64,000 nucleotides of DNA, from positions 1 through 64,000 of the forward strand of contig CATKXR010000004.1 in the NCBI GenBank assembly GCA_949840805.1, given 5' to 3'. Below are positions 2,858 through 10,352 of the stretch, one piece after another. Made by a program: the position numbers and the translations under genes. This DNA comes from an uncultured Lachnospiraceae bacterium. Lineage in GTDB: Bacteria; Bacillota; Clostridia; Lachnospirales; Lachnospiraceae. Numbering within the stretch: position 1 is the first letter of the stretch; each line of letters starts with the position of its first letter. The notes beneath the pieces were generated by a model. That model made no database searches. It saw only the letters and a program-made list of their open reading frames with translations, and had not been told where the DNA came from.

Positions 2858-3283
2858 ATGAGAGAAAAACAGATAACAATTACACAAGCAGAATTGAATG
2901 AACTTGTCGAAAAGGAATTTCAGAAGAAGAGGCGTATACTATTTGATTTGTGCGCGGAGGGCTATAGCCTGGATCTTGATTATAAGGAAAAAAACATCTT
3001 CGGGAAAAGATTTATTATATTTGATGGGAAAAGCTGGGATAGACTATGGAAACGCTTTACAAAGGTTTCTGAGGATTTGATGGATGCAAGGGAGATATTG
3101 GAGATTACAGAGCCATTTTATAAAAAGTATCGTACTTTCTATGAGCAGGATATAAAGCCAGAATATCCTTTTGCTTCCTTTGATGAATATATAAAAATGG
3201 TTGATGCAGAATATACATCTGAGGAATTTGAACGGGTTCGGGAAGAATTTGAAGAATATTTTGCAGAGGATGAAGAGAGGTAA
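2858..3283 (+). CDS. Hypothetical protein of the mobile element
   Basis: This 141-aa protein is not recognised. It is acidic and charged, with no signal peptide or membrane segment. The first 25 residues resemble a helical KQITITQAELNEL segment, and the C terminus is rich in Glu (REEFEEYFAEDEER). AAGGAGG sits just before the ATG and the gap to mob is nine bases, so it is almost certainly co-transcribed with the relaxase. An accessory role in mobilization is a guess from position only. Confidence 0.75.
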   Translation: MREKQITITQAELNELVEKEFQKKRRILFDLCAEGYSLDLDYKEKNIFGKRFIIFDGKSWDRLWKRFTKVSEDLMDAREILEITEPFYKKYRTFYEQDIKPEYPFASFDEYIKMVDAEYTSEEFERVREEFEEYFAEDEER

Positions 3284-3339: not shown

Positions 3340-4191
3340 CTACTGAAAATATACATTGTCTGGTGTTGGAGCATTAAGATTAAGCACATTATTCTGTCCA
3401 AAGTACGCAACTCCATTAACCTGAATATAGTAAACAGCATGATTACCAGTCCCAGAAATAGCTGCTTTTAATCCCAATGCATTTGCAAGGGAAATAGCAG
3501 TCATAGCATATTCTCCACAAACACCTCTTTTGTTAATTAAAACTGAATAATATGCATTTCTATTTGATGTATTTTCAAGCACATACTGTCCCTGTCCAAG
3601 TACTTTTTGAATTTCTCTTGCTCTTTCCATTTCAGTCATATTTTCAAAATCCATACCATTCAGCCAATTACAGAACCACTGATAAAGAGCCTGAGTGTTA
3701 TGGACATTTTTATCATAATCTTCTTGGGATATATACATCTGATCTCCCGTATTTGGATTTATAGAATATCCTGCCGGCGGAATGAAATATTTATCCATTT
3801 GTCCAGTTAATAAAGCTTGTATATTGTCATTACAAATGCTAATGCTATTAGCACCAATCAACCCAGTATTTGTAATTCTCAGATTCCACTCGTCAATCTT
3901 CCCTGCCAACGGATGCGCCGGGTCATAATTGGCGCTATGGTTCACATTGTTGCTAATAGCTACATTCTGTGTTTGAATAACGCCATTCACAATCCACGCG
4001 CCTGCTTCGTTTACCTGATACCCGTCCGGCGTGGTGGTATTCGTTAAGGGAGATCCATTTTCCATATAGTAACATTCCGAGATACCGTCACTATTAGAAT
4101 CCAGCCATTGCCATTCTCCGGCAAAGGAAGTTCCGGCCATTGCTAAAGATAATGCGGCGGCCAGTGTGATTTTGATGAATTTCTTTTTCAT
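3340..4191 (-). CDS. Secreted transglutaminase-like protein with one cell-wall-binding-like repeat
   Basis: The 283-aa precursor has a signal peptide (about 1-24, ending TSFA). After it comes one choline-binding-like repeat (about 25-75: aromatic, DGISECYYM, then PDGYQVNEAGAW), as used by Lachnospiraceae to stay at the cell wall. The C-terminal half resembles the transglutaminase/protease superfamily: C225 in RGVCGEYA and H251 in GNHAVYY; the usual third Asp is not evident. AAGGAGG nine bases before ATG 4191 decides this start over the longer frame. It is the only cargo-like gene and runs opposite to the rest of the element. Its substrate is unknown. Confidence 0.75.
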   Translation of the reverse strand: MKKKFIKITLAAALSLAMAGTSFAGEWQWLDSNSDGISECYYMENGSPLTNTTTPDGYQVNEAGAWIVNGVIQTQNVAISNNVNHSANYDPAHPLAGKIDEWNLRITNTGLIGANSISICNDNIQALLTGQMDKYFIPPAGYSINPNTGDQMYISQEDYDKNVHNTQALYQWFCNWLNGMDFENMTEMERAREIQKVLGQGQYVLENTSNRNAYYSVLINKRGVCGEYAMTAISLANALGLKAAISGTGNHAVYYIQVNGVAYFGQNNVLNLNAPTPDNVYFQ

Positions 4192-4301: not shown

Positions 4302-4538
4302 ATGGATACCATAAGAAATGATGATAGAATATGTATCGGTGCAAATATCCGTCAGATTAGGAAAGAACGGCATATCGGGCAGACGGAACTTGTTCGGATG
4401 GTTCAGTTGACGGGTGTAGACCTTACAAGAGAAACGCTGGTAAAGATTGAGCGAGGAAAACAGCATATCAAGGTGTCGCAACTAAAAGCGATCCGGGAGG
4501 CGCTAAAAACATCATATGAGGAACTGCTAAAGGAATGA
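4302..4538 (+). CDS. Xre/Cro-CI type helix-turn-helix regulator
   Basis: This 78-aa protein is a bare HTH_3 domain: an initial helix (ANIRQIRKERHIGQTELV), a recognition helix around LTRETLVKIERG, and the closing VSQLKAIREAL helix. The family binds DNA as a dimer and commonly controls mobile-element genes. It diverges from the transglutaminase-like gene and precedes the origin region, so it could regulate the cargo, the rep operon, or both. Its target is inferred from position. Confidence 0.85.
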   Translation: MDTIRNDDRICIGANIRQIRKERHIGQTELVRMVQLTGVDLTRETLVKIERGKQHIKVSQLKAIREALKTSYEELLKE

Positions 4539-4589: not shown

Positions 4590-4844
4590 ACAGAAGTCTA
4601 GGGATAACCCTAGACTTCTGTGTTGTGTGTCTAAACTGCCGAAAAGTGAGGATTTATGCAGGTTTGCGGCCTCTATTTCAGGCACATAGGGACTGTGCCA
4701 GGGACGCTTGGTCTGTGCCAAAAAATGTTTACAAAATGTTCACAATTTTTCTGCCGCCATTTGCCGCCAATCACTACATATTATCTATGCAACAAATAAG
4801 CACTGATTCATGTAGTAAGTGCCGGGAATGAAATCCCCCGGCAC
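4590..4844 (+). other. Candidate replication origin of the element
   Basis: This non-coding stretch before copG-rep is dense in repeats. A perfect 14-bp stem with an ATAA loop (4590-4621) has no T-run, so it is not a terminator. CTGTGCCA occurs twice 20 bp apart (4693, 4713). AAAATGTTTAC and AAAATGTTCAC are tandem 11-mers (4722-4743). ACTACAT/ATGTAGT form a wide inverted repeat (4773-4779, 4810-4816), and GTGCCGGG/CCCGGCAC make an 8-bp stem with a 10-nt loop (4819-4844). HUH Reps nick at stem-loops and often bind nearby iterons. The origin role is inference. Confidence 0.5.
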
Positions 4845-4866: not shown

Positions 4867-5025
4867 ATGAAACAATATAAGTATGACAGATATACATTAA
4901 GACTGTCAAAGGAAATGACAGCTTATGTAAAGGCGGAATCGGCACGAAGAGGCATTGCACCAACGGCATTTATCAAGGCCGTTCTGGGAGAGTATAAGGA
5001 GGCGGAAAGACTTGGCAGAAGATAA
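4867..5025 (+). CDS. Small CopG-like ribbon-helix-helix protein
   Basis: This 52-aa ORF starts at ATG 4867 with CAGGAGG seven to eight bases upstream. A short beta-strand motif (YTLRLSKEM) is followed by two helices around RRGIAPTAFIKAVL, the pattern of ribbon-helix-helix repressors such as CopG, which bind as dimers and limit plasmid copy number by repressing rep. Its 3' end contains the AAGGAGG of the downstream rep gene and overlaps it by 14 bases, so translation is likely coupled. The small size makes the family call moderate. Confidence 0.7.
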   Translation: MKQYKYDRYTLRLSKEMTAYVKAESARRGIAPTAFIKAVLGEYKEAERLGRR

Positions 5026-6208
5026 GAAGGGATTGAAATTAAAGAATGATACACGTTCCCGGTCATGGTTTATTGTGTGTCCAAACGTGGATAAAAATGG
5101 TGTCTGTGGCCTGACGGCAGAGGAAGTAGGCGAGTTATCCGAACAAGAATTATGTGAGTATGTGGTCTGCCAATGGGTTTCCAGCACCAGGCAGGCGGCT
5201 TGTCTGTATTGTGTCTCCAAAGAGGGAATGAAGCATTTACACATTGTCCTTTGCGGAAATAATCCTATTCGGTTCAGCAGGATAAAAAAATTTATTGGAG
5301 ATAAAGGGCATATCGCAATGACGAGAGGCAATAAAGAGCAGGTAGAGGCTTACATAAATAAGACGGGCAAGTTTGAGGAAAAAGGCGAGGTCATCCTGGC
5401 GAAAGCCCAGGAGGGCGAGCTAGTCGGGAGACAAGGCCGCAGAGTAGACATTGAATTGATTCGGGATGCTATCGACAATGGGATGTCATGGCAGGAAGTC
5501 CGGCGGCTGGATGATAATTTTTTTGACAGCCGGATGACAGCCATGATTAAGAATATGTATTTTGACAAACGAGCACAAGAAACACCATTCAAGAGAGATG
5601 TGGCCGTTCACTGGCTTTTCGGAGAAAGCGGGAGCGGCAAGACGGGAATCATTTTTGACCTAATTGCAAAGCATGGCGAGGGCAATGTATATCTTGTATC
5701 CGACTATCAAAATCCATTTGACAATTATGCAGGAGAGCCGATTATTATATTAGATGAATTTCGAGGACAGCTTCCTTATGCGACTGTATTGAGCATGTTG
5801 GAGGGTTATAAAAAAGAAGTCCACTGCCGTTATGCGAATGTGATGGGCTTGTGGACGGATGTGTATATCACTACAATTAAAACGCCGGAGCAGGTGTACG
5901 CCAAAATGATTGATAAAGAAGAAGACGATACAGACCCAATAGGGCAGTTGCTAGGGCGCATCAAATATTTCAGCTATTGCTATAGGGTCAACCGCCCGGA
6001 CGGAGCAAAAAAGGATAGGGACGGACACCCGGCGGATTTTTATCGCTTTACGATCACTGGCGAAAACTATCGGAATTTGCAAGACAGCTTTGCAAAGGGT
6101 ACGAAAATCCAGCAGATTCAGAAAGCCGCCCGTAGGGATTATCTGGATAATTATGCCAGACCGGATGATACGGTAGAATCCTTTCGGATAAAGCCTCTAA
6201 TCTTATAA
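5012..6208 (+). CDS. rep: CRESS-like replication initiator: HUH endonuclease plus SF3 helicase
   Basis: TTG 5012 is chosen because AAGGAGG (4996-5002) sits nine bases upstream inside the CopG-like gene; this gives 398 aa. The N-terminal nuclease domain shows WFIVCPNV (motif I, about 19-26), HUH motif H75-L-H77 and nucleophile motif Y114-I-N-K117. The C-terminal helicase has Walker A GESGSGKT (204-211), Walker B IIILDEF (244-250) and a motif-C-like VYITTIKTP. This order is that of CRESS-DNA virus Reps and of their bacterial plasmid relatives. It would nick the element's origin for rolling-circle replication. It ends at a strong terminator near attR. Confidence 0.85.
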   Translation: MAEDKKGLKLKNDTRSRSWFIVCPNVDKNGVCGLTAEEVGELSEQELCEYVVCQWVSSTRQAACLYCVSKEGMKHLHIVLCGNNPIRFSRIKKFIGDKGHIAMTRGNKEQVEAYINKTGKFEEKGEVILAKAQEGELVGRQGRRVDIELIRDAIDNGMSWQEVRRLDDNFFDSRMTAMIKNMYFDKRAQETPFKRDVAVHWLFGESGSGKTGIIFDLIAKHGEGNVYLVSDYQNPFDNYAGEPIIILDEFRGQLPYATVLSMLEGYKKEVHCRYANVMGLWTDVYITTIKTPEQVYAKMIDKEEDDTDPIGQLLGRIKYFSYCYRVNRPDGAKKDRDGHPADFYRFTITGENYRNLQDSFAKGTKIQQIQKAARRDYLDNYARPDDTVESFRIKPLIL

Positions 6209-6213
6209 TGTAA

Positions 6214-6239
6214 GAAAAAAGCCGGGAACGGCTTTTTTT
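6214..6239 (+). terminator. Intrinsic terminator of rep
   Basis: AAAAAGCCG pairs with CGGCTTTTT around GGAA, followed by further T residues. It directly follows the rep stop. Confidence 0.88.
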
Positions 6240-6245
6240 GTTGCA

Positions 6246-6297
6246 TGTGGGAAATATTTGTGATAGAATAAAACTGTGGGAAAAAGTGAGGGAAAAA
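6246..6297 (+). promoter_or_regulatory. Right arm-type integrase repeats
   Basis: TGTGGGAAATA at 6246 and the longer TGTGGGAAAAAGTGAGGG at 6275 mirror the left-end copies at 460 and 516 in the same orientation and order. The longer copy differs from the left one by a single inserted A. This supports a role as integrase arm sites rather than coincidence. Confidence 0.55.
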
Positions 6298-6353
6298 TAT
6301 TTCACAGATACATAAAAGTATTGTAAAATCAATAAAAATAACGCTTTTAAAAT

Positions 6354-6401
6354 TGGGTCTGCAACACCCTGATCACCAGTTCAAATCTGGTTGTCGCCTC
6401 T
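6354..6401 (+). repeat. attR, 48-bp direct repeat (tRNA-Cys 3' half)
   Basis: Identical over 48 bp to 361-408. It is only the 3' portion of tRNA-Cys, without acceptor 5' strand or D arm, so it is not a second tRNA gene. It marks the right junction; chromosomal sequence resumes after it. Confidence 0.93.
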
Positions 6402-6403
6402 CT

Positions 6404-6432
6404 AAAACCCTTGATTTTTCAAGGGTTTTTTA
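6404..6432 (+). terminator. Original chromosomal terminator of the tRNA operon
   Basis: AAAACCCTTGA (6404-6414) pairs with TCAAGGGTTTT (6419-6429) and continues into T residues. It lies three bases past attR, where the tRNA-Cys transcript would have ended before the element inserted. Confidence 0.85.
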
Positions 6433-6475
6433 ATTTGTATCCAGACTGGCAGAGAAAATCCCGGATGTCATCTGG

Positions 6476-6504
6476 TAGACGAAATTTTTTTCTTGTGATA
6501 TAAT
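6476..6504 (+). promoter_or_regulatory. Promoter of gdpP-rplI-dnaB
   Basis: A perfect TATAAT (6499-6504) with the extended TG at 6496-6497 is preceded 17 bases upstream by TAGACG (6476-6481), a fair -35. The gdpP ATG follows 26 bases later. Confidence 0.6.
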
Positions 6505-6530
6505 AGGTGTACTTAACAAGGAGAAGAGAG

Positions 6531-8570
6531 ATGAAGGAAACCATAAAAATAAAAGGCCAGTTGAAGATATTCCTATCCTGGCCGCTATTGCTGTCTTTAT
6601 TTCTGATATTTGGAAATATTACCATTGCAGTATTAAATAAAACATCAGGTCTGCTGTTATTTCCGTTTACACTATGTTATTTGATTGCTGCAGTGTTTTT
6701 AAGCCTTCATCAGAAAAGACGGCTTTTAAGCGGGCTGGTGGAGTTTTCAGCTCAATATGCCTGGATTCAAAAACAGCTTTTGGCAGAGATGGCAGTTCCT
6801 TACGGACTTGCAGATGAGGAAGGGAACTTATTATGGACGAATGAAGCGCTTCAGGAGATTTTGTCAGAGAAAAAAGCATTCAAGAAAAATCTTCAGGTTC
6901 TTTTTCCCGAAATTGCCAAAACGGATCTGGGTACACAGGAATTGGCGCATGTTCATACAACATATCAGAACCGAAAGTTCCGTTTGGATATCCGCACCGT
7001 TTATGTCACAGGTGACGAGGAAGATGAAAGCGCCATTATTTCAGGAAAAGAAAAGATATTAGCTGTATATTTGTTTGATGAGACAGAGATTCTTCAGTAC
7101 AGGCAGGAAATCACGGATGAAAAGATGGTGGCAGGATTAATATATCTTGACAATTACGAGGAAGCTCTGGAAAGCGTGGAGGAGGTTCGTCGTTCTCTTT
7201 TAACAGCTCTTATTGACAGGAAAATTAATAAATATATTGGCGCCATGGATGGAGTTGTGAAGAAGACGGAAAAAGATAAATACTTTTTCATGATCAAGCA
7301 GAAATATATGGAACAGATCCAGGAGGAGCGGTTCGGTATCCTGGAAGATGTGAAAGCCGTAAACATTGGAAACGAGATGGCAGTGACCTTAAGCATCGGA
7401 ATCGGTATGAATGGGGAGAGTTACAGCCAGAATTATGAATATGCCCGCGTGTCCATTGATATGGCCTTAGGCCGGGGCGGCGACCAGGCAGTGGTGAAGG
7501 ATGGCGGGAAGATCCAGTATTATGGCGGGAAATCCCAGCAGTTGGAAAAAGCCACCAGGGTAAAGGCCCGGGTGAAGGCTCATGCTCTGCGGGAGTTGAT
7601 AGAGACGAAAGACCGTTTGCTGATTATGGGCCATAAGCTGGGGGATATCGATTCCTTTGGCGCTTCCATTGGGATTTACCGAATTGCTGCTTCGCTGAAT
7701 AAGAAGTCCCATATTGTGATAAATGAAGTTACCACTTCGGTTCAGCCTATGATGGACCGATTTCTGAGCAGTTCGGAATATTCGGAAGATTTGTTCTTGA
7801 ACGGGGCGCAGGCGGCAGAGCTTGTAGATAATAATACCATGTTGGTGGTAGTGGATGTGAACCGGCCCAGTATCACGGACGCGCCGGAGCTTCTGCATAT
7901 GGTGAAGACGATTGTGGTTCTGGATCATCACCGGCAGAGCAGTGAGATCATCGGGAATGCCGTGTTGTCCTATGTAGAGCCCTATGCGTCCTCAGCTTGC
8001 GAGATGGTAGCCGAGGTGCTGCAGTATATTGCTGATGATATTAAGATTAAATCAGTAGAGGCTGATGCCATGTATGCGGGTATAGTTATTGATACCCTGA
8101 ATTTTACGAATCAGACAGGTGTTCGAACTTTTGAGGCGGCAGCCTATCTCCGGCGCAGCGGAGCAGACGTGACTCGTGTGCGTAAGCTGTTCCGGGACGA
8201 TATGGCAGAATATAAAGCCAGGGCGGCGGCTATTACGTCAGCAGAGGTTTATCGGGAGGCATTTTCCATAGGAGTCTGCCCGGCGGAAGGGCTTCAAAGC
8301 CCCACAATCGTAGGCGCCCAGGCAGCTAATGAGCTGCTGGATATCAAAGGCATCAAGGCGTCTGTGGTTTTGACAGAATACCATGGCAAGATTTATCTGA
8401 GCGCCCGTTCGATAGATGAGGTGAATGTACAGGTTATGATGGAGCAGCTTGGCGGAGGCGGCCACAGGACAGTCGCGGGAGCGCAGCTTGAAGGTATTTC
8501 TGTTGAGGAAGCCAGGAAGCGTGTAAGGGAAGTATTAGATAATATGTTGGAGAAAGGAGATATATCATAA
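6531..8570 (+). CDS. gdpP: GdpP-type cyclic-di-AMP phosphodiesterase
   Basis: This 679-aa membrane protein matches the GdpP/YybT family, which hydrolyses c-di-AMP to pApA. Two N-terminal membrane helices (about 10-60) lead to a PAS-like region, a degenerate GGDEF domain and a DHH-DHHA1 phosphodiesterase module. The DHH motifs are seen as [16 protein letters not shown] and VLDHHR, and the GGGGH of DHHA1 is near the C terminus. ATG 6531 is preferred over GTG 6507 because AAGGAG lies nine bases upstream. It overlaps rplI by one base (TAATG), the usual gdpP-rplI-dnaB arrangement. Confidence 0.93.
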
Positions 8571-9020: not shown

Positions 9021-10352
9021 ATGGAAGATACTCTAATAAAGCGGGTGCTTCCCCACAGTATTGAAGCGGAGCAGTCAGTGATCGGATCTATGCTGTTGGA
9101 TAAGGATGCTATTATTGCTGCCTCAGAGATATTGTCTGAGGCAGATTTTTATCATCGGGCTTACGGCGTCATGTTTGGAGCTATAACAGAGCTGTTCAAT
9201 GAAGGAAAACCGGTGGATTTGGTTACTCTTCAGGACCGTTTAAAGGAAAAGGATGTGCCTCCGGAGGTGAGCAGCCTGGATTTTGTGAGAGATATCCTGG
9301 ATACGGTTCCCACATCGGCTAATGTCAAGTCTTATGCCAACATTGTACGGGAAAAAGCGGTTTTGAGAAAGCTTATTAAAGTGACGGAGGAGATTGCCAA
9401 TACCTGCTACGCAGGAAGGGAGCCGTTAGACCAGATTTTGGCTGACACGGAGAAATCGGTATTTGACTTGCTGCAGAACCGTGATTCGGCGGAATTTGTT
9501 CCGATTCGCCAGGTGGCGCTGAACGTGCTGGAAAGGATTGAAATTGCATCAAAGAACCCGGGGTCGGTGACAGGGATCCCTACGGGTTTTATTGATCTGG
9601 ATTATAAAACTTCCGGCATGCAGCCATCCGATCTGGTATTGATTGCGGCACGCCCGTCTATGGGAAAGACTGCTTTTGTGCTGAATCTGGTGGATCATGT
9701 GGCGGTCAGGAAGAAAATGCCCTGTATGATTTTCAGCCTGGAAATGTCAAAGGAACAGCTTGTCAACCGTATGCTGGCTATGGAGTCTAATGTGGATTCC
9801 CAGAAGCTTCGCACCGGAAGCCTGACAGACTCTGACTGGGACGCGGTGGTGGAGGGAATTGGCATAATCGGCAATTCCAAGCTATTGATCGACGATACGC
9901 CCGGTATTTCCATTACGGAACTTCGGTCTAAATGCAGGAAGATGAAATTGGAGTATGGTCTGAGTATGGTCATTATTGATTATCTTCAATTGATGACCGG
10001 GAGCGGCAGGGCAAGCGACAACCGGCAGCAGGAGATTTCCGAGATTTCCCGTTCCTTAAAAGCTCTGGCAAGAGAGCTGAATGCGCCTGTGATCGCTTTA
10101 TCCCAGTTAAGCCGCGCCTGCGAATCCAGGCAGGATCATCGGCCTATGCTGTCTGATCTGCGTGAATCAGGGGCGATTGAGCAGGATGCAGATATTGTGA
10201 TGTTTTTGTATCGGGATGATTATTATAATAAAGATACAGAGACTCCTAATATAGCGGAGGTGATTATCGCAAAACAGAGAAACGGCCCGATCGGCACTAT
10301 AAATCTTTTATGGCAGCCGGAATTTACCAAGTTTGTGAATTTGGCAAGATAG
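9021..10352 (+). CDS. dnaB: Replicative DNA helicase DnaB
   Basis: This 443-aa protein is the ring-shaped replicative helicase. The N-terminal domain (about 1-110, LPHSIEAEQSVIGSML) is followed by a linker and the RecA-like C-terminal domain with Walker A ARPSMGKTAF, Walker B MVIIDYLQLM and the conserved LSQLSRACESR and DLRESGAIEQDAD. Length is normal. It is the last gene of the gdpP operon, which ends at the hairpin at 10393. Confidence 0.97.
   Translation: MEDTLIKRVLPHSIEAEQSVIGSMLLDKDAIIAASEILSEADFYHRAYGVMFGAITELFNEGKPVDLVTLQDRLKEKDVPPEVSSLDFVRDILDTVPTSANVKSYANIVREKAVLRKLIKVTEEIANTCYAGREPLDQILADTEKSVFDLLQNRDSAEFVPIRQVALNVLERIEIASKNPGSVTGIPTGFIDLDYKTSGMQPSDLVLIAARPSMGKTAFVLNLVDHVAVRKKMPCMIFSLEMSKEQLVNRMLAMESNVDSQKLRTGSLTDSDWDAVVEGIGIIGNSKLLIDDTPGISITELRSKCRKMKLEYGLSMVIIDYLQLMTGSGRASDNRQQEISEISRSLKALARELNAPVIALSQLSRACESRQDHRPMLSDLRESGAIEQDADIVMFLYRDDYYNKDTETPNIAEVIIAKQRNGPIGTINLLWQPEFTKFVNLAR

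Follow-up and report, generated by a model that had tools for sequence, protein, structure and literature searches.

A CRESS-type Rep in a likely integrative and mobilizable element of a Lachnospiraceae bacterium and a nonanucleotide hairpin in its relatives

Organization of the element and its integration site

The window, that is the whole 64-kb stretch of DNA analyzed here, comes from a draft assembly of a Lachnospiraceae bacterium (152 contigs, 6.35% contamination) and contains a compact unit bounded by two 54-nt direct repeats sharing 96% identity. The left repeat, attL (361–414; forward strand, as for all features below unless stated), runs from the anticodon region of a tRNA-Cys gene (336–407, predicted with ARAGORN), the integration target, to just beyond its 3′ end, and the right repeat, attR, lies at 6354–6407. 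Their spacing gives an element length of 5,993 bp. These ends, absent from the initial annotation, are each accompanied by a copy of an 18-nt repeat (519–536 and 6279–6296, 94% identity), a candidate arm site for the integrase. The features are arranged in the order integrase, candidate oriT, MobV relaxase, 141-aa protein, transglutaminase-like cargo in reverse orientation, XRE regulator, hairpin, 52-aa RHH-like protein, and rep, and all reading frames are intact.

The first gene (540–1727) encodes a tyrosine integrase of 395 aa (PF00589, E 1.2e-16). It is followed by the candidate oriT (1969–2023), made up of a 17-nt inverted repeat (88%) and the bases behind it, and by a MobV-family relaxase of 252 aa (2090–2848). 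The latter matches PF01076 (E 1.3e-30) and PDB entry 4lvi (E 1.5e-22), exceeds the curated NCBIfam cut-off for MobV (NF041497, 117.5 bits for a cut-off of 100) and has an HUH-type motif, HMH, which 4lvi shares at the aligned position. The proposed linkage of a tyrosine integrase and a MOBV relaxase to rep within 6 kb is borne out by these Pfam matches. Downstream of mob lies a gene for a 141-aa protein (2858–3283) with no Pfam match at E 1. The cargo gene (3340–4191, reverse strand) encodes an apparently secreted transglutaminase-like protein of 283 aa, with PF01841 and PF19085 over cut-off and a signal peptide judged by eye, and the next gene (4302–4538) a 78-aa HTH regulator of the XRE type (PF12844 and PF01381 over cut-off). 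The 52-aa protein (4867–5025), whose gene overlaps the start of rep, has weak RHH/CopG-like matches: it scores 18.8 of the 28 bits required for PF12441 (E 0.0028), and further hits are an Arc-like PHROG at E 0.0091 and an NCBIfam family of the BrnA type at E 0.063. The label of CopG-like repressor given to it in the initial annotation is weak, the PF12441 match being under the cut-off.

Integrase, relaxase, and attachment repeats combined in one unit make it an integrative and mobilizable element (IME) by these characters. Pfam detected no T4SS family among its seven genes; the source genome carries eight PF02534 coupling-protein matches in seven places, which are possible helpers for transfer. 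The gene plan of small repressor, rep, and MobV is also that of pMV158-type plasmids, which are not known to carry an integrase. Unlike the window Rep, pE194/pMV158-like Reps lack a helicase domain and fall in another cluster, according to the main text of PMC6668415. The IMEs with MobV, or with Viral_Rep/PF00910 proteins, described in the accessible text of PMC5357655 and PMC5704250 share with the element integration at a tRNA gene or gene end, a tyrosine integrase, a relaxase of their own, and no mating pore of their own.

Among 24 genomes searched in the genus, the source genome included, 15 carry the tRNA-Cys core: the source genome has two copies and the other 14 have a single copy each. 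The evidence that these sites provide for an empty target is mixed. In the 52 bases 3′ of the core, the closest congener, G407, most resembles the right flank of the window (score 51, versus 13 to 40 for the others), and its flanking protein is 91% identical to that of the window. The ancestral flank is nevertheless uncertain, since the corresponding bases of G172 match the left end of the element itself (score 86). The flanking DHH gene, taken as a route to the empty site, led to no tRNA in 12 congeneric loci. Behind the tRNA-Cys terminator, two loci (L087, G407:C168, and L093, G423:C1) carry what may be the 5′ terminus of a group II intron. In the congener G417, a decayed relative of the element occupies the same tRNA-Cys (L103, G417:C127, 8908–10997); its integrase is 92% identical, its mob is cut to 185 matching residues, and no rep match was found in it.

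The Rep protein and related bacterial elements

The last gene of the element (5012–6208) has a TTG start codon, with AAGGAGG about nine bases ahead, and encodes a protein of 398 aa. The HUH nuclease motifs HLH (75–77) and YINK (114–117, motif III) and the SF3 helicase motifs GESGSGKT (204–211) and IIILDEF (244–250) lie where the initial annotation had placed them. An alignment of 21 Reps agrees with this assignment: H75, Y114, K117, G204, K210, E249, and R316 are invariant, H77 nearly so, and the YxxK form of motif III is common to all. RNA_helicase PF00910 is matched above cut-off (E 2.8e-5), while Viral_Rep PF02407 remains sub-threshold (E 0.12), a relative (L034, see below) reaching 25.9 of the 26 bits and thus falling just short. 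Searched alone against the PDB, the window Rep matches five sequences at E ≤1, four of which are Reps (9pqq being the best at E 1.3e-11, with 7lar at E 1.2e-6) and the fifth a ribosomal protein (E 0.25). The profile of the 21 Reps matches 12 distinct sequences at E ≤0.01, all named Rep, replicase, or replication-associated protein. The top one, at E 6.9e-29, is the full-length Rep 7lar, which we take to be that of a porcine circovirus. Structure prediction from three Reps gave a mean pLDDT of only 42.2. Motifs and profiles together identify the protein as a CRESS-type Rep with two domains, HUH and SF3; the profile search upholds the original assignment, with both motif III and the SF3 region aligning.

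Elements with the same kinds of gene, namely integrase, MobV, small repressor, and CRESS-type Rep, were found in three relatives at three different tRNA genes. In a metagenome-assembled genome of Enterocloster bolteae (L002), a near-complete set lies at tRNA-Cys between repeats 6,064 nt apart, with identities to the window of 90% for the integrase, 72% for mob, 68% for the 141-aa protein, 54% for the cargo, 85% for the small protein, and 80% for rep, and with another HTH gene where the window has XRE. In bacterium 1XD21-70 (L003), the repeats lie at tRNA-Gln, 5,568 nt apart, and enclose an XRE gene (81%), a rep (67%), a divergent integrase (35%), and a Mob_Pre protein (E 2.1e-15); no transglutaminase was found there. 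In L034 (genome G217, same family), a 25-nt repeat reaching into tRNA-Gly recurs after 5,713 nt, with mob at 58%, rep at 60%, the 141-aa protein at 38%, another tyrosine integrase, and a transglutaminase-like gene of 23% identity and sub-cut-off Pfam score. The candidate oriT is kept in L002 and L034, not in L003, and candidate small RHH-like frames overlapping rep were recognized by eye in L003 and L034. In a phylogeny, the four Reps form a single clade with a support of 100/100. The cargo is on the reverse strand both in the window and in L002 (3149–4060); the distant gene of L034 (10842–11780) sits between rep and mob.

Between the window and L002, dN is far under dS in all five genes compared, although dS is so large as to be unreliable: dN and dS are 0.13 and 2.15 for rep, 0.18 and 1.34 for mob, 0.06 and 2.40 for the integrase, and 0.08 and 0.85 for the small gene, the fifth being the gene of the 141-aa protein; dS of the cargo gene was incomputable and it is left out.

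More widely, a search of 397 genomes from the family found relatives of the Rep in 24 (E 1e-10), and one of 392 genomes drawn from the order found them in 29 (E 1e-8), these being partly the same genomes; two records of the plasmid collection and six of the phage collection matched as well. The viral_contigs collection yielded neither a relative of the window Rep nor the hairpin-arm pattern. MobV is rare in this wider set: 2 of the 24 genomes have a Mob_Pre match close to the Rep, and a MobV profile built from the four elements finds L002, L003, and L034 only, among 26 fetched loci. Of these 26 loci, 19 have an integrase no further than 4 kb from the Rep, in one case as a 144-aa fragment.

According to the main text of Kazlauskas et al. 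2019 (PMC6668415), 97.5% of the viral-like Reps outside pCRESS7 and pCRESS9 are in elements site-specifically integrated in bacterial chromosomes. Because such integrated Reps (pCRESS) are already known, the class of element is not new; what stands of the suggested under-described type is a CRESS-type Rep in an integrative element with a relaxase. The p4M-like integrated elements (pCRESS1–3) of the same text likewise combine an HUH-SF3 Rep, site-specific chromosomal integration, and no structural genes, and the YINK motif resembles their Reps in not being of the YLxH type that marks pCRESS4–8. Unlike them, the present subgroup carries a MobV relaxase and a transglutaminase-like cargo. No description of MobV combined with a CRESS-type Rep was found in the literature searched, PMC6668415 being represented by its main text.

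An origin-type hairpin in the element and its relatives

When the sequences ahead of rep were aligned across the four elements, an origin-type hairpin emerged. The loop in L002, L003, and L034 is CTTAGTATTACC, which contains TAGTATTAC, the nonanucleotide of nanoviruses. The window copy (4590–4621) has an intact, perfect 14-bp stem and a 4-nt loop, ATAA, without the nonanucleotide. The corresponding sequences are TAGTATT*AC in nanoviruses, AAGTATT*AC in PCV2, and TAATATT*AC in WDV (accessible text of PMC7826260). As at these nanovirus and circovirus origins, the nonanucleotide of the relatives tops a hairpin upstream of a homologous Rep, and short repeats adjoin it in L003 and L034; unlike them, the elements are bacterial and integrated, have no capsid, and include a window copy without the nonanucleotide, and cutting is only predicted. 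This CRESS-virus-type origin of the relatives, which the initial annotation did not contain, is a more surprising feature than the presence of the Rep in an element.

The hairpin was then scored as an exact nonamer on a stem of at least 9, within 2.5 kb of rep. In a first set, of which the three discovery loci are part, it is present at 18 of 27 Rep copies, compared with 2 of 1,080 dinucleotide shuffles; the more distant parts of these loci, 240,512 bp in all, have none. In a second set, fetched after the idea had formed, 12 of 21 have the exact hairpin. Counted per locus, 17/26 and 12/21 give 29 of 47 Rep loci, not all of which are independent (L052 and L053 are nearly identical, and L107 to L109 are close); 300 permuted nonamers reached at most 2 of the 47 loci, with a mean of 0.09. 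Fetched loci that have no such Rep, 44 in number and 175,699 bp in total, did not yield the TAGTATTAC hairpin, and the 64-kb window had no exact hit either. It has the sense of rep in 30 of the 30 Rep copies with a strict hit, and lies upstream of the rep frame at a distance of at most 700 nt, or just inside the first possible start in both L035 copies. There are two exceptions: in L054 it is 1.9 kb upstream, and in L037 it follows the rep start by 3.1 kb. In L035 (G096:C11), two different CRESS-type Reps stand in tandem (5526–6713 and 9172–10335). An integrase follows each of them and each has a TAGTATTAC hairpin of its own, which suggests two neighboring elements.

The exact hairpin is missing in 18 of the 47 loci. 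Several of these show near variants close to rep: CAG-TATTAC (L046 and L115), AAG- (L048), GAG- (L049 and L121), TAA- (L056), and TAGTATTAA (L055). L110 and L111 have a hairpin with a non-canonical loop, and L057 a AAGTATTAC hairpin more than 2.5 kb from rep. No trusted hairpin was detected in L040, L044, L045, L116, L118, L122, L126, and L127 (15 upstream bases to scan), nor near the rep of the staphylococcal plasmid L033, the Rep of which has a YLxxH-like motif III.

Short repeats lie beside the hairpin: a k-mer count found clear ones in L003 (TCTGTATCT) and L034 (TGCCGCAC) and called none in the window and L002, where a weaker set is visible by eye (in the window at 4681–4720, GGCACA and two copies of CTGTGCCA). 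Their sequence varies by lineage, and they could be Rep-binding sites.

We found no report of a nonanucleotide origin in integrated bacterial elements in a literature search that was thin on subscription papers. The main text of PMC6668415 contains neither the word nonanucleotide nor the string TATTAC, and mentions no origin hairpin for the p4M-like elements. In the accessible text of other papers, the nonanucleotide is discussed for virus Reps (PMC8780604), and the SPHINX/BMMF circles tested for it are without it (PMC10378824). One circular genome, grouped with pCRESS9 by its authors, carries the loop GCTTAATATTACC (accessible text of PMC7183601), which counts against full novelty of the origin.

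Taken together, the 6-kb integrative and mobilizable element is likely to amount to a rolling-circle plasmid in integrated form whose replicon is of CRESS type. From the gene families, we infer a cycle of excision, nicking, and transfer. The integrase would recombine the tRNA-Cys repeats and release a circle; Rep would bind the repeats beside the hairpin, upstream of the operon of small repressor and rep, and nick the nonanucleotide in the loop through its Tyr114; the SF3 domain would unwind the DNA for copying of the circle by a host polymerase; and the small RHH-like protein would repress the operon. MobV may nick oriT and make the strand transferable by a co-resident conjugative element through the mating pore of the latter, after which the integrase would insert it into the tRNA-Cys of the recipient.

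With its ATAA loop at the place where three relatives have the nonanucleotide, the window copy is either without the predicted nick site or wrongly assembled in the loop. A further -TATTAC hairpin, on a stem of at least 8, was not found in this copy, the sole -TTAC one being located at the tRNA terminator. Unless the assembly is wrong at this point, the copy is thus probably unable to start replication at the hairpin. It may then be a replication-dead passenger that is maintained solely through its integration, or whose movement depends on MobV transfer or on the Rep of a relative. We hold this reading only tentatively: the hairpins of L110 and L111, likewise devoid of a canonical nonamer, and the rep-less decayed relative of G417 speak for it, whereas the intact reading frames and the low dN relative to dS of rep and of the small gene speak against it. 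It is compatible with the integrated-plasmid explanation for the family as a whole.

Related Reps in a plasmid and in phage-type genomes

The best plasmid match to the window Rep is RepA of p4M (tblastn E 6e-17, 26% identity), which is on a long branch in the tree. Upstream of its repA, p4M carries TAGTGTTAC in a 9-bp hairpin. Among the six matching phage records, two are bajarodino virus 2, one of which was fetched. The five fetched genomes, deposited as Inoviridae, combine a gene annotated Zot with a Rep related to that of the window, and Pfam confirmed Zot in the three that were checked (L029, L031, and L105). The exact TAGTATTAC hairpin is present in all five, as well as in two IMG/VR contigs with such Reps (L128, which has a Zot match, and L129), that is, in 7/7 phage-type sequences (L029–L031, L105, L106, L128, and L129). 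The main text of PMC6668415 states that none of the bacterial elements surveyed in 2019 encoded known viral structural proteins; set against this, the Zot genomes suggest that the Rep family may extend to virions.

These relatives raise the question of whether the element itself descends from an endogenized CRESS-like virus or a filamentous prophage, since related Reps accompany Zot genes. We regard this origin as very improbable: searches of Pfam and PHROGs, at the thresholds applied, gave no structural or assembly family for any of the seven genes, the source genome has no Zot match, and the phage-type Reps are separated from the MobV clade by a branch with a support of 98/98. An endogenized virus was rejected on the lack of a structural (capsid) family among the seven genes in the same two databases.

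The phage-type genomes also bear on the function of the Rep. Streptococcal IMEs with PF02407 proteins have been described, and a role in conjugation has been proposed for these proteins (accessible text of PMC5357655 and PMC5704250), so that the window Rep might be a second relaxase rather than serve circle maintenance. In those Viral_Rep/PF00910 IMEs, the Viral_Rep protein is taken as the relaxase, together with TcpA, whereas the present element has both MobV and a CRESS-type Rep. This function seems unlikely, as the element has its own MobV relaxase, the rep-linked hairpin of its relatives carries the nonanucleotide of virus replication, and related Reps serve phage-type genomes.

We lean slightly towards the view that the Rep and the TAGTATTAC-topped hairpin form an old bacterial module, common to IMEs, p4M (as TAGTGTTAC), and gut filamentous-phage-like genomes, from which eukaryotic CRESS viruses would have inherited both initiator and origin, the nonanucleotide being older than them. 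The virus-type start signal of the relatives thereby bears on the origin of the circovirus and nanovirus group, for which an origin sequence shared with bacteria would provide an independent character. CRESS-type replication is thereby linked to conjugative mobilization and to filamentous phages, and the TAGTATTAC hairpin offers a DNA mark for finding such elements; the origin is the part that merits specialist attention.

Of 24 host genomes, two have a Zot match close to the Rep, at about 6 kb in G111 (G111:C32) and about 3 kb in G369 (G369:C1). Both regions are prophage-like and carry a CRESS-type HUH-SF3 Rep.
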